21,676 nt of DNA from positions 1-21,676 of the IMG/VR virus record IMGVR_UViG_3300033182_001315; one strand, 5' to 3'. Under the pieces are notes generated by a model. That model worked only from the letters and a program-made list of their open reading frames with translations, made no database searches and had not been told where the DNA came from. The stretch comes from a virus. The first letter of the stretch is position 1; each line of letters starts with the position of its first letter. Shown in pieces: positions 16,986 through 21,455 of this stretch. The translations under genes and the position numbers were made by a program.

Positions 16986-17363
16986 ATGGCTTATGCTGAA
17001 CAAGTTGTAGATCATTTCACCAATCCAAGAAATGTTGGTTCTTTTGATAAAAATGCTGATGATGTTGGAACTGGGCTTGTAGGAGCTCCAGAATGTGGTG
17101 ATGTTATGAAACTTCAAATACAGGTAGAAAATGATAGAATCGTGGATGCTAAGTTTAAGACGTTTGGGTGTGGCAGTGCCATTGCAAGTTCTTCACTTGC
17201 TACAGAGTGGGTCAAAAATAAAACGCTTGATGAAGCCATGCTCGTCAATAATATAGAAATTGTTGAAGAGTTATCATTACCACCAGTTAAGATACACTGT
17301 TCTGTCCTCGCTGAAGATGCAATTAAAGCAGCAATTGCAGACTATAGAAGTAAAAAGAAGTGA
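16986..17363 (+). CDS. iscU: IscU iron-sulfur cluster scaffold
   Basis: A full-length, 125-residue IscU (E. coli IscU is 128). All cluster ligands are present: C37 with D39 (GAPECGD), C62 (FGCGSAIASSS) and C105 (KIHCSVLAEDAI). The LPPVK sequence (98-102), which binds the HscA chaperone, is also intact. The protein would accept sulfur from a cysteine desulfurase such as IscS and pass nascent clusters to A-type carriers. No desulfurase or HscA is in this window, so host partners are expected. GGGAG precedes the start by 5 bases. It overlaps the first A-type carrier gene by 4 bases, so the genes are coupled. Confidence 0.93.
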   Translation: MAYAEQVVDHFTNPRNVGSFDKNADDVGTGLVGAPECGDVMKLQIQVENDRIVDAKFKTFGCGSAIASSSLATEWVKNKTLDEAMLVNNIEIVEELSLPPVKIHCSVLAEDAIKAAIADYRSKKK

Positions 17364-17722
17364 TTTCATTGACTGAAAAATCGGCTGATAAAATAAAAGA
17401 GATATTGATTGAACAAAAAATTTCAGAGCAACCAATGCTCAGAGTAGGTATAAAAGCAGGTGGTTGCTCTGGATTTACATACGTTCTAGATTTTGAGTCA
17501 AAACCTCATAAATTTGATAAACTTTTTAAGTCACAAGGTATTTCAATATTATGTGATAAAAAGAGTTTATTGTATTTAAAAGGTATTGAAATTGATTGGT
17601 CAGATAATTTGATGGATCGTGGATTTAGATTTAATAATCCAATTGCTAAATCAAGTTGTGGTTGTAGAACATCATTTATGCCGAATGTCGATTCACAACA
17701 AGCAACGCCATCTTGGATGTAA
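17360..17722 (+). CDS. iscA: A-type iron-sulfur carrier (IscA-like)
   Basis: A 120-residue A-type carrier starting at a GTG that overlaps the iscU stop. MISLTEKSADKIKEIL is a classic N-terminus, followed by AGGCSGFTY (C36) and SSCGCRTSF (C100, C102), the three Cys that hold the Fe-S cluster. It has Arg where many members have Gly in CGCG, but all ligands are retained. It probably receives clusters from the phage or host IscU and delivers them to apo-enzymes. The C-terminal dozen residues (Gln/Ser/Pro-rich) exceed the usual length. The gap to the next start is 20 bases. Confidence 0.92.
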   Translation: MISLTEKSADKIKEILIEQKISEQPMLRVGIKAGGCSGFTYVLDFESKPHKFDKLFKSQGISILCDKKSLLYLKGIEIDWSDNLMDRGFRFNNPIAKSSCGCRTSFMPNVDSQQATPSWM

Positions 17723-18072: not shown

Positions 18073-18212
18073 TTTATAAAATAAAAGTTAGCGATAAGAC
18101 AGTACATAAAACTTCTGATTGGAACGAAGCATTGAGAGTCGTAAAAGAAATTTTTAAAAGAGGACATGACGATATTTATTTGATAGGGGGTAAGATTGGC
18201 TACTGGAGATAA
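18069..18212 (+). CDS. Small hypothetical protein
   Basis: A 47-residue ORF whose ATG overlaps the preceding stop (ATGA) and whose end overlaps the next gene by 17 bases. It is a compact, folded-looking peptide (MIYKIKVSDKTVHKTSDWNE, ALRVVKEIFKRGHDD, ending IGGKIGYWR) with alternating beta and helix patterns. The strict overlap on both sides supports translation. No family is recognised. Confidence 0.65.
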   Translation: MIYKIKVSDKTVHKTSDWNEALRVVKEIFKRGHDDIYLIGGKIGYWR

Positions 18213-18567
18213 TCCGTATCAAATAACTGTGACTGAAAAAGCGAAAAAGATATTTTCTGGTGCGCCAGAGAAATTTATTCGCATCAGTGCTAATCCAAGA
18301 GGATGTTCAGGGTGGAGATGGACATTGGAGTCTACTAATGAAATTCATTTGAATGATGTTTCATTTGAAGATGGTTATATTATTGTTGATAAAGATATAT
18401 TGACAAATGTTATCGGATCTATTACGATAGATTATAAAGATGAAGATATGGTTAATCAAGGTTTCGTATTCATCACAAACTCTGGACAATGTGGATGTGG
18501 TGAGTCATTTCAACCTATAAATCCAAACTATAATAAATTTAATATGTTTCCAGTGAACAATGAATGA
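18196..18567 (+). CDS. Second A-type iron-sulfur carrier (SufA/ErpA/IscA-like)
   Basis: A 123-residue protein starting at TTG 18196 with AGGGGG 5 bases upstream; no ATG is suitable. It has VTEKAKKIF near the N-terminus, PRGCSGW (C37) and QCGCGESF (C99, C101), the three-Cys set of A-type carriers. It is clearly diverged from the carrier at 17360 (little identity outside the motifs), so it is not a recent duplication; it may have been acquired separately or serve different clients. The extension after CGCGESF is Asn/Pro-rich. Two carriers plus a scaffold in 1.6 kb make a dedicated Fe-S module. Confidence 0.9.
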   Translation: MATGDNPYQITVTEKAKKIFSGAPEKFIRISANPRGCSGWRWTLESTNEIHLNDVSFEDGYIIVDKDILTNVIGSITIDYKDEDMVNQGFVFITNSGQCGCGESFQPINPNYNKFNMFPVNNE

Positions 18568-18661
18568 AAATGCTATTTTTACGTTATGGTGTATTGCTAT
18601 GATAATTTTTATGTTTGTTGAAGTAAGTTTTGATTCACTTATAAATACTATAACGAAATAA
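18560..18661 (+). CDS. Tiny single-pass membrane protein
   Basis: A 33-residue ORF overlapping the preceding gene by 8 bases. Residues 5-22 are hydrophobic (AIFTLWCIAMIIFMFVEV), enough for one membrane helix, with a short polar tail. No ribosome-binding site stands out, so translation would rely on coupling. The late promoter TATAAATA lies inside its last codons. It may be a genuine small membrane peptide or a fortuitous frame. Confidence 0.45.
   Translation: MNENAIFTLWCIAMIIFMFVEVSFDSLINTITK
18640..18647 (+). promoter_or_regulatory. T4-type late promoter TATAAATA
   Basis: An exact match to the T4 late promoter element, which is read by RNA polymerase carrying the phage gp55-type sigma factor and the gp33/gp45 co-activator and clamp. 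Transcription would begin near 18653 and run through the structured leader into the ADP-ribosyltransferase-like gene and probably the tmRNA. It is followed by 150 non-coding bases. A second exact copy is at 20617. Confidence 0.7.
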
Positions 18662-18681
18662 ACGAATTCTGACGAGATGTT

Positions 18682-18771
18682 AGGTTCTGCGGCAACAGAA
18701 CTTTTGTGCTTTGACCAATGGCAATTATGCTGTCTAGTACAAGGGACATCAAGCCAACTTTGCCGAGTTGG
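18682..18771 (+). ncRNA. Structured leader RNA with complementary hexaloops
   Basis: The gap 18662-18812 has no convincing gene but is clearly richer in GC than its surroundings. Hairpin 1 pairs 18682-18689 with 18696-18703 (one G-T pair), loop CGGCAA. Hairpin 2 pairs CCAACT 18754-18759 with AGTTGG 18766-18771, loop TTGCCG. The two loops are exact reverse complements and could form a six-pair kissing interaction. A second CAGAAC at 18791-18796, just before the AAAGGA of the next gene, could pair alternatively with GTTCTG of hairpin 1. The element looks like a leader or cis-regulatory RNA for the late transcript; its class is unknown. Confidence 0.55.
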
Positions 18772-18812
18772 GAGTTCACTATGTAGCTTTCAGAACACAA
18801 TAAAGGAAATAA

Positions 18813-19604
18813 ATGATAGCATTCAAAGATTTTTTGCTAGAAGGTAGTGCTGAGGTTAACCTTTCAAAAAAATTGCTCAAAAATCTGAGTGATATTGCGC
18901 GATATTCTATTACAAATTGGGAATGGGCAAATTGGGATAAAGGTGATCTAAGTAAAGCGTACCGTGAAAAAAATGATATTTATGACGAAATAGAAGCACA
19001 AGCAAAAATTCTTAGAGATGCTATTCGTAAACGAGAAGGTAAAAGCATCACCTTGTATCGTGGAATAGTGAACAAAGATATTGATTCACAGAAATTTAGA
19101 GGCAGAATTCTCACGAGTTGGACAAGCAGAGCAAAAGTTGCTGCTTTGTTTGCTGGAATTACTATGGGTATGACTGGAAATAAAATTGTAATGAAAGGCG
19201 AAAACTCCTTCACTAAATTAGAGGGATTGACTAAATCTCAAGCACAAAAAATTCAAGATACAGTAAAACGCGATGGATACGCTAAAATTGGAAATTTTCT
19301 TTTCAAGCGTAAAACGGATAATCCAGAGTGGACAGTAATATTCATAAAAAGTAAATATGGAAATCGTAGATTACCTGATGATGATGCTGTTGAAACAGAT
19401 GACATTGCTCGATGGTTACTCGATAGAATTGAAGATGCTTTGAAATTAAATAGACCTTATGAAGATGAAGGATTTGTTATAAAGAAAGAAATATCAGTTG
19501 ATGATATTGTTTGGGTATTGAATGCTGGTGGGACTATGGAATATATAGTCAAAAATCATAGCAGCATTGACGGAATAAAAATTGGAATAGAAGAATTTTC
19601 TTGA
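18813..19604 (+). CDS. Putative ADP-ribosyltransferase, probably packaged in the capsid
   Basis: A 263-residue protein with AAAGGA before its ATG. The core resembles R-S-E ADP-ribosyltransferases: SITLYRGI (R83), then ILTSWTSRAKVAALFAG (101-115), the STS-type NAD-binding strand, and a C-terminal acidic YEDEGFVI/KKEI segment in which E217/E219 or E226 could be the catalytic Glu. The S-T-S and E-x-E motifs are not canonical, so the family call is moderate. The N-terminus MIAFKDFLLEG resembles the capsid-targeting peptides of T4 internal proteins (MKTYQEFIAEA), which direct proteins into the head for injection. A late promoter upstream fits such a virion effector, comparable to T4 Alt. Confidence 0.6.
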   Translation: MIAFKDFLLEGSAEVNLSKKLLKNLSDIARYSITNWEWANWDKGDLSKAYREKNDIYDEIEAQAKILRDAIRKREGKSITLYRGIVNKDIDSQKFRGRILTSWTSRAKVAALFAGITMGMTGNKIVMKGENSFTKLEGLTKSQAQKIQDTVKRDGYAKIGNFLFKRKTDNPEWTVIFIKSKYGNRRLPDDDAVETDDIARWLLDRIEDALKLNRPYEDEGFVIKKEISVDDIVWVLNAGGTMEYIVKNHSSIDGIKIGIEEFS

Positions 19605-19610
19605 TGACGC

Positions 19611-19841
19611 AGGAAAGTAATTGCTTGGACCTGGGGGCAGAACCCAGCATCTCCACCAAGGTTTCAGACGGGGATGATATAGAATTCGACAGGTTATGAG
19701 GATACTGAAGAGAGAAAATAGGGTTGCGACCAACGCTAAAATTATAATCGCAAATGACGTTGATTATACACCTGTTAGAGTAGCACTTGCTGTCTAATTA
19801 GGTCGGGGTTCGGGGACACCTTGTTATCAAAGTTCCCCTTT
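19611..19841 (+). ncRNA. ssrA: Circularly permuted two-piece tmRNA
   Basis: The acceptor piece comes first: T-arm CTGGG (19631-19635)/CCCAG (19643-19647), acceptor strand CATCTCC (19648-19654), discriminator A and CCA (19656-19658). After an 11-base spacer the coding piece starts with GGGGATG (19670-19676), which pairs with CATCTCC. The conserved AGAATTCGACAGG follows. GAGGATACT (19698-19706) can pair imperfectly with 19616-19626 as helix P2. The resume codon GCA is at 19750, after ATAATC. The tag is ANDVDYTPVRVALAV and the stop TAA is 19795-19797. CCT/TTAGA (19771-19779) pair with TCTAA/AGG (19793-19802) around the tag end. The T-loop GGCAGAA departs from TTCRANN. End positions are approximate. 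Confidence 0.9.
19812..19841 (+). terminator. Terminator-like hairpin ending the tmRNA
   Basis: GGGGA (19812-19816) pairs with TCCCC (19834-19838), with an inner CTTG/CAAAG stem around the loop TTAT, followed by TTT. It lies just after the tmRNA tag and its reverse face also covers the stop codon of the opposite-strand endonuclease, so it may end transcription from both sides. Its layout parallels the terminator at 20579-20609. Confidence 0.6.
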
Positions 19842-20444
19842 GCAATATTTTGGATGAAGACTTTTCATATATCCTGGATTATAATAATTGCCACATAATT
19901 CACATTTTTGTTTAATGATTTGTTTTGGCTTTCGTAATGCTTTTTTATGTTCTTCGGAAAGAGGTCTTCCTTTTTTTCTTGTTGGTTTATCATATGTGAT
20001 ACCTTTATTCCAAGGTGTTTGACCAATATGAGATTTACTCATTTTTTCACGAGATTCTTTAGAAAATTTGTAACCAACTTTGGAGTCAATTATTTTTTGA
20101 ATACTTTCTGGAGAATGTTTGAAATTTTTGGGTTGAATAAAACTTTTATTGTCAGTTTTGTTCAACCACTTATCATCCTTGACAACTTTTAATCGTTGAA
20201 GTACATTTTCTTCCCATTTGCGGGCAGCATCAGCGGTCTCAAAGGTTTTTCTGATTTCATAATCAAAAGCATCTTTACCGTGTTCTTCAATCAAAGATTT
20301 GACGACTTTACTGCTGGTAAAATAGGTTTCCCATAGGTCATCTGGTGAGCAACCTTTAGCAAAACGGACACCATAATAAACTTGACCTGTTGGTTTGAAT
20401 TTGATAAGATATGTATATGGGGTATGATATATAGATTTAGACAT
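19827..20444 (-). CDS. GIY-YIG homing endonuclease with NUMOD3 repeats (SEG-like)
   Basis: The only opposite-strand gene. The 205-residue protein has a variant GIY-YIG module: PYTYLI (9-14), VYYGVRF (22-28, catalytic R27), YFTSS, and E78/E79 in KWEENVLQRL. NUMOD3 DNA-binding motifs follow: HSPESIQKIIDSKVG with FSKESREKMSKSH (110-139), and GRPLSEEHKKALRKP (159-173). A C-terminal Cys cluster is present (C181, C184, H197, C201). GGGAG is 7 bases before its ATG. This is the architecture of the T4 seg endonucleases. Such genes spread by cutting related phage genomes lacking them and being copied in by repair. Its stop codon lies in the tmRNA terminator and a second tmRNA tag end lies beyond its start. 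Confidence 0.92.
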   Translation of the reverse strand: MSKSIYHTPYTYLIKFKPTGQVYYGVRFAKGCSPDDLWETYFTSSKVVKSLIEEHGKDAFDYEIRKTFETADAARKWEENVLQRLKVVKDDKWLNKTDNKSFIQPKNFKHSPESIQKIIDSKVGYKFSKESREKMSKSHIGQTPWNKGITYDKPTRKKGRPLSEEHKKALRKPKQIIKQKCELCGNYYNPGYMKSLHPKYCKGEL

Positions 20445-20476
20445 GACAGTCTCCCTGAAAGATTGTTGTGTTTAGA

Positions 20477-20507
20477 GTAGCAGAGAAACTGCGAATTTCT
20501 CTGCTAC
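20477..20507 (-). promoter_or_regulatory. Perfect 12-bp hairpin in the endonuclease leader
   Basis: GTAGCAGAGAAA (20477-20488) pairs perfectly with TTTCTCTGCTAC (20496-20507), loop CTGCGAA, extended by one A-T pair. It lies 33 bases before the endonuclease start on the minus strand. On that strand CATAAATA (20518 down to 20511), one base from the late element TATAAATA, lies just upstream. T4 homing endonuclease genes are often held back by leader hairpins and expressed late, so a similar control is possible. No T-run follows it on either strand, so it is not a typical terminator. Confidence 0.5.
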
Positions 20508-20524
20508 TTGTATTTATGTATTTT

Positions 20525-20609
20525 AGAATTTATACTCCAGCACGAATGGCAATTGCTGCCTAACTGCTGATGGGCTTGGGAAGTGCCTGGAAACAGAAAC
20601 TTCCTTTTT
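20525..20609 (+). pseudogene. Displaced second tmRNA tag end and terminator
   Basis: Reading from 20528, the codons give IYTPARMAIAA and a TAA stop at 20561-20563. This matches the intact tag's DYTPVRVALAV. Tyr, Thr, Pro, Arg and two Ala are identical, and ACA/ACT, CCT/CCA and AGA/CGA are synonymous swaps. The stretch after the stop ends in a hairpin laid out like the one that ends the tmRNA gene. No resume codon, pseudoknot or 5' piece is present, so this is a 3' fragment separated from its gene by the endonuclease. It retains the canonical ending Ala-Ala. Confidence 0.75.
20579..20609 (+). terminator. Rho-independent terminator
   Basis: GGAAGT (20579-20584) pairs with ACTTCC (20599-20604), with an inner CTG/CAG stem capped by the stable tetraloop GAAA (20590-20593), followed by TTTTT at 20605-20609. 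It would end plus-strand transcripts arriving through the tmRNA remnant and insulate the late promoter 8 bases downstream. Confidence 0.85.
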
Positions 20610-20616
20610 GTCTTGT

Positions 20617-21023: not shown

Positions 21024-21455
21024 ATGGCACAGCAACCAAAACGTGAAATCACAACAGATGGAGATGTAGAAGTAGTCAAGCATGTCGAACAAGAAACACT
21101 GACTACTTCAAAATCAATAAAGACATTTATTTTCATTGTTCTTGGTATTCTGGCATACCTTACTTTTTTCATTATACCCGAAATCAATACCAGAACAGTC
21201 AGAATACAAAAAGACCTTACTTCAATTTTATTACAGAGTCAAAGATACGAGCGATCTGCCAGAGTTTTTTCTAATGATCATGTATGTGCAAGGTGTCATC
21301 TCAACCCCGATTATTTGCTTCACGGTCTTATGTCAAAGTTTAGGAATTTGAACGAGATGAAGGAATATCTCGCAAACGAACACCAAAATTTTTACACAAT
21401 GACTCAGCCCATGGAGGATGAGGAATTGATGGAGATTTTTCGCGGACTTAGATGA
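21024..21455 (+). CDS. Membrane-anchored protein with c-type haem motif
   Basis: The 143-residue protein has a charged N-terminus, one hydrophobic helix (about 32-52) that would anchor it in the inner membrane, and a periplasmic domain. That domain carries VCARCHLNP (C88-A-R-C91-H92), the CxxCH haem c attachment motif, with candidate Met axial ligands at 126 and 130 (YTMTQPM). A C-terminal helix (EDEELMEIFRGLR) resembles that of small class I cytochromes c. Haem would be attached by the host maturation system. A spanin-like function with a chance CxxCH cannot be excluded, since it lies in a late operon after a holin-like gene. Confidence 0.75.
   Translation: MAQQPKREITTDGDVEVVKHVEQETLTTSKSIKTFIFIVLGILAYLTFFIIPEINTRTVRIQKDLTSILLQSQRYERSARVFSNDHVCARCHLNPDYLLHGLMSKFRNLNEMKEYLANEHQNFYTMTQPMEDEELMEIFRGLR

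Follow-up and report, generated by a model that had tools for sequence, protein, structure and literature searches.

A predicted late leader RNA in a marine T4-like phage carries two hairpins with exactly complementary loops

A stretch between a T4-type late promoter motif and the ribosome-binding site of a downstream gene in a marine T4-like phage contains two hairpins whose six-nucleotide loops, CGGCAA in hairpin A and TTGCCG in hairpin B, are exact reverse complements at 6/6 positions. The promoter motif, the absence of a coding signal, the two hairpins and a loop complementarity far beyond chance are all firm. We tentatively read this region as the 5' UTR of a late phage gene, one that would act in cis through a kissing loop and affect mRNA stability or translation, an interpretation that we consider close to an even call but short of one. 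A bolder reading, in which the leader is the first representative of a novel class of kissing-loop RNAs that marine T4-like phages use to control a late effector gene, with the kiss serving as a sensor or timing element, appears improbable at present. Control of late genes in T4-like phages is usually thought to sit at the promoter, so regulation at the RNA level during the late stage is worth testing. A genuine and functional kiss would constitute a compact control element based on tertiary structure within a phage late mRNA; at present the leader is a single striking sequence without relatives. Overall, we describe a real and unusual non-coding structure of no known class, for which a switching function is plausible but unsupported.

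The window, by which we mean the whole stretch of DNA that was analysed, is a 21.7-kb virus record (21,676 nucleotides) with T4-like features that include late-promoter motifs, a RuvC-like resolvase and homologues of IscU and IscA; a primase-like protein is probably a further such feature. The IscU homologue (NifU_N, 1.6e-51) and the IscA-type protein (Fe-S_biosyn, 5.5e-19) are encoded at 16986-17722 and 18196-18567; a third protein is HesB-like by eye on the basis of a cysteine motif and is also found in related loci. Additionally, a freshwater-2 RNA (RF02980) occurs near iscU in related phage contigs (L009 5520-5602 and L022 4416-4497). Elsewhere in the window, a 143-aa protein at 21024-21455 contains a CARCH (CxxCH) motif of the type that binds haem in c-type cytochromes, and it is preceded by a hydrophobic 119-aa protein; relatives occur in L056, L057 and L072.

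The features of the leader and its surroundings are collected in Table 1. A reading of the sequence alone (hereafter the sequence-only reading) had pointed to a promoter at 18640, and a late-promoter motif, TATAAATA, is indeed present there. With the spacing taken from T4, transcription would start 3' of this motif at about 18653. The gap that separates the end of a 33-aa ORF from the ATG of the downstream gene spans 151 nt (18662-18812) and has a GC content of 41.7% versus 33.8% for the window, which agrees with the earlier remark that it stands above its AT-rich surroundings. The 33-aa ORF has a codon log-odds of 0.22, which is within the range of real genes.

Table 1. Positions of the leader, its predicted pairings and the flanking features in the window
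Feature	Position	Strand	Basis or remark
33-aa hydrophobic ORF	18560..18661	+	directly upstream of gap; 3' end overlaps late promoter
T4-type late promoter TATAAATA	18640..18647	+	sequence
Structured untranslated leader, 160 nt	18653..18812 (predicted)	+	folding, hairpin scan, codon scoring
Possible closing helix P1	18667-18672 x 18790-18795	+	fits with hairpin A; no better than shuffles
Possible helix P2	18676-18681 x 18745-18750	+	no better than shuffles
Hairpin A, GTTCTG-CGGCAA-CAGAAC	18684..18701	+	loop CGGCAA 18690-18695; perfect 6-bp stem
Alternative helix, GTTCTG x CAGAAC	18684-18689 x 18791-18796	+	minimum-free-energy fold; excludes hairpin A
Hairpin B, CCAACT-TTGCCG-AGTTGG	18754..18771	+	loop TTGCCG 18760-18765; perfect 6-bp stem
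Likely ribosome-binding site AAGGA	18803..18807	+	5 nt ahead of ATG; sequence
Downstream late gene, 263 aa	18813..19604	+	relatives found; ADP-ribosyltransferase-like motifs by eye

The leader does not encode a protein, a possibility that is ruled out by codon bias together with tblastn. All six frames on both strands score between -0.21 and -0.01 bits per codon as compared to 0.11 to 0.49 for the genes of this phage, and a 56-aa ORF that overlaps the region has neither a relative among the collected phages nor a PHROG match. Evidence of a decayed protein gene was one finding that the sequence-only reading had named as counting against a structured RNA, and no frame shows a coding signal. The leader could also not be placed in a known RNA class, in line with that reading: a search of positions 18630-18830 against Rfam 15 gave nothing above the gathering threshold and only chance-level hits below it, and the leader itself matched no Rfam family at E 10, riboswitch families included. 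A hammerhead-type CUGANGA motif is present as CTGACGA at 18669-18675; a hammerhead ribozyme, whose core also calls for GAA(A) and NUH at a three-way junction, was rejected given AAG instead of GAA after the next stem, a G at what would be the cleavage position and no Rfam hammerhead hit.

We surveyed the length of late leaders at 46 TATAAATA sites in the window and 80 loci, measured as the distance to the next ATG-started ORF of at least 60 aa. The median distance is 33 nt, with 14 distances of at least 100 nt, and six of these 14 are permuted tmRNA genes (L006 at 161, L008, L010, L025, L030 and L034). Several of the other long distances contain, by eye, shorter ORFs or coding-looking sequence, with not every case resolved. 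A long late leader that is neither coding nor a tmRNA is therefore unusual among the 46 sites, which form a small set.

The pair of hairpins with reverse-complement hexaloops that had been noticed in the sequence-only reading is borne out exactly, with perfect 6-bp stems in both, and hairpin A can be extended to 8 pairs, one of which is G-U. What would define a kissing-loop cis-regulatory RNA by sequence, namely two complementary-loop hairpins within a 5' leader, is thus present. When the 160-nt leader was shuffled 20,000 times with its dinucleotide content preserved, a pair of hairpins with 6-bp stems and complementary loops never appeared (0/20,000), and relaxing the requirement to 5-bp stems gave such a pair in only two. 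A and B are also the sole strict pair in the window when both strands are scanned, and strict pairs are rare in 2.28 Mb of other sequence. As the test was chosen after the pair had been seen, the significance of the loop match is lower than the raw shuffle count would indicate; even after scanning of the whole window, chance remains an unlikely source of the match. A simple duplex calculation gives about -7.6 kcal/mol for the loop-loop pairing, before any penalty for closing the kiss. These results support the proposed structured leader, non-coding and late, whose hairpins are capable of kissing.

Relatives of the leader were sought as a source of covariation, and none was found in the phage, plasmid, IMG/VR and GTDB sets, so the homologous leaders that the sequence-only reading had proposed to collect were searched for but could not be assembled. 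Specifically, blastn of the leader against phages and plasmids gave no homologue, and neither did a search of IMG/VR for the exact hairpins. A gapped loop pattern found 82 stretches in IMG/VR, none with both stems (0/82), and a longer pattern found 16 stretches in GTDB genomes, again none with both stems (0/16). The loci of relatives of the downstream protein, IscU and the HesB-like protein yielded no leader homologue, and a single-sequence covariance model run over nearly all fetched loci and 44 whole records returned one weak hit (E 0.43); this model is built on one distinct sequence and reaches close relatives only. The IMG/VR result is to be read with the caveat that records very near the window may be absent, such that relatives could still exist. 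As no relative was found, the role that we propose for the leader is an informed guess.

This lack of any relative that preserves the hairpin pair is also what would be expected if the complementary loops arose by accident in a neutral late leader, an explanation that we regard as unlikely but as the one that best survives among the alternatives. It is further favored by the ordinary folding of the rest of the leader, which, once A and B are constrained to form, pairs no better than shuffles do (z -0.85, 101/500 as good); the secure structural claim is thus limited to the two hairpins and their loops. Moreover, a single strict kissing pair, A/T-rich, of low complexity and seen from both strands, also turned up among other loci that total 2.28 Mb with both strands included. 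Against unselected structure stands the absence among the shuffles of any pair with the observed 6-bp stems, with only a small probability remaining after the scan of both strands of the window.

In the kissing-loop reading, a late mRNA would be made from the TATAAATA promoter at 18640, with a start near 18653, and hairpins A and B would form in this RNA such that their complementary 6-nt loops could kiss. Once kissed, the leader would form a compact domain immediately 5' of the ribosome-binding site for the gene at 18813, and it would most likely act in cis on the stability of the late mRNA or on its rate of translation. An RNA leader is supported by the location, with a late promoter on the 5' side, a ribosome-binding site on the 3' side and no strong terminator in the interval, as well as by a folding excess that is confined to the + strand. 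There the energy is modestly below that of shuffled sequence, at z -1.8 to -1.9, and the - strand, at z +0.1, folds no better than its shuffles. The lowest-energy fold (-39.4 kcal/mol) pairs the 5' arm of hairpin A with the CAGAAC at 18791 and loses this hairpin, while a second fold (-38.6 kcal/mol) keeps A and B together with closing helices P1 and P2. P2 encloses hairpin A plus an imperfect arm at 18703-18743 and leaves hairpin B outside. Once the loop duplex is counted, again before the kiss-closing penalty, the fold with both hairpins would be favored, and the kiss may thus hold the leader in the hairpin-A fold over its competitor.

The near equality of these two folds is the basis for a two-state translational switch: hairpin A's 5' arm would swap between its own hairpin and the CAGAAC near the ribosome-binding site, perhaps driven by a ligand or protein, and thereby turn translation on or off. 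Such a switch had been suggested from the repeated CAGAAC, and part of that suggestion stands: the motif is duplicated within the leader (18696 and 18791), and in a longer context the predicted pairing probabilities are 0.50 for hairpin A and 0.47 for the competing helix, with 0.99 for hairpin B. However, the ribosome-binding site has a predicted accessibility of 0.60 versus 0.62 in the two folds, and since it is 60-62% unpaired in both, a simple hide-and-reveal mechanism is not predicted. The repeat is weak evidence because CAGAAC occurs six further times in the window for a total of 8 copies, no riboswitch family matches, and the rest of the fold is ordinary. The switch is therefore plausible and unproven, and in our estimation improbable.

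It is still less probable that the structured RNA acts in trans or dimerises through its loops, or that the leader is processed into a small RNA. Complementary hexaloops could in principle pair equally well between molecules as within one, but low copy number should favor intramolecular pairing. Furthermore, a terminator scan found no strong terminator separating the leader from the downstream gene. Hairpin A with its flanks (18682-18703) does pass a loose terminator scan, with only 3 G-C pairs and the tail TTGTGCTTTG.

A role at the level of DNA, with the two palindromes serving as operator sites just 3' of the late promoter, seems quite remote. As operators might be, each hairpin is a perfect inverted repeat (6+6) around a 6-bp centre, but the arms differ between the two palindromes while the complementarity lies exactly in their centres. 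Indeed, the complementarity spans precisely both loops and ends at the closing pairs, as would be expected of paired loops more than of an inverted repeat in DNA, and the folding excess on one strand only likewise speaks for RNA. Finally, because related phages carry permuted tmRNAs directly behind late promoters, we tested the leader as a relic of a permuted tmRNA gene, either decayed or moved from its place, and this origin is largely refuted and barely credible. Over 23 nt the leader is similar to the duplicated tag end at about 20542-20562 (p 0.003 versus shuffles). A profile built from the coding pieces of phage tmRNAs (nhmmer --max), however, recovers the duplicated 3' end in the window at E about 1e-10 and has no hit in the leader, and the Rfam tmRNA models have no match there either.

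The permuted tmRNA of the window itself lies at 19596-19797 (RF04321, 89 bits) with a tag that reads ANDVDYTPVRVALAV. Next come a GIY-YIG/NUMOD3 homing-endonuclease ORF (- strand, 19827-20444) and then, at about 20529-20607, a duplicate of the tag end with its 3' hairpin that ends in ...YTPARMAIAA, with the whole region covering 19596-20612. The phage tmRNA profile scores the second tag-end copy at 30.0 bits versus 7.1 bits for the first, a pattern that would fit insertion of the endonuclease element into the tmRNA gene together with a new 3' end to replace the original. In ten related loci (L006, L008, L010, L011, L012, L034, L071, L252, L253 and L255), the spacer between the tmRNA pieces contains a 28-30 aa hydrophobic ORF that, in these marine phages, looks like a single membrane span. 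Its ribosome-binding site comes right after the CCA, and in most cases its TGA stop abuts the GGGG of the coding piece. A comparison of L006/L008 with L012 shows the most change at third codon positions and the least at second positions. We found no report of this spacer ORF in the literature searched; the tmRNA of the window lacks it, and homology of the spacer ORFs to the 33-aa ORF upstream of the leader is unsupported (p 0.06 to 0.69). The TATAAATA motif lies directly upstream of the permuted tmRNA in six loci (L006 161, L008 1192, L010 970, L025 37, L030 2537 and L034 2682), which suggests that these tmRNAs are expressed late; for the tmRNA of phage Melnitz, early expression was proposed instead (PMC9004378).

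The gene that the leader precedes encodes a protein with relatives in Sinorhizobium phage phiM9, Rhizobium phage RHph_I1_18 and two large IMG/VR phages. By eye only, its LYRG and SWTS resemble ADP-ribosyltransferase motifs. Neither Pfam and PHROGs nor an AlphaFold/Foldseek comparison (mean pLDDT 71, four-sequence alignment) gave an assignment, and as no library or fold search confirmed the ADP-ribosyltransferase reading, the argument for the leader is kept independent of it. Late promoters (ATAAATA motifs) are found directly upstream of two homologues of this gene, those of phiM9 and L086, with leaders of about 31 nt and 4 nt, respectively. As these leaders are short, the hairpin element is not part of the general regulation of the gene.

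In kissing-loop riboswitch aptamers, such as those for purine, lysine, cobalamin and guanidine-II, the paired loops of two hairpins lock a compact fold in a 5' leader. The phage leader shares with them two hairpins with complementary loops in such a position, and differs in that it has no Rfam match even at E 10, that hairpin A is nested with another arm in P2 while B lies outside, and that no metabolic gene is directly downstream. T4 itself uses structured leaders to control translation, for example the gene 32 pseudoknot and the leaders of genes e and soc. These likewise are structured untranslated RNAs 5' of a gene in a T4-like phage; unlike them, the structure in the window lies wholly downstream of a late promoter, and the ribosome-binding site is not hidden in the predicted folds. 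The OM43 phage Melnitz has a glutamine riboswitch that adjoins its tmRNA (PMC9004378). While the leader described here has no glutamine-riboswitch match and belongs to the gene upstream of the tmRNA, both cases bring together a regulatory RNA, here a candidate one, and a permuted tmRNA in a marine T4-like phage.
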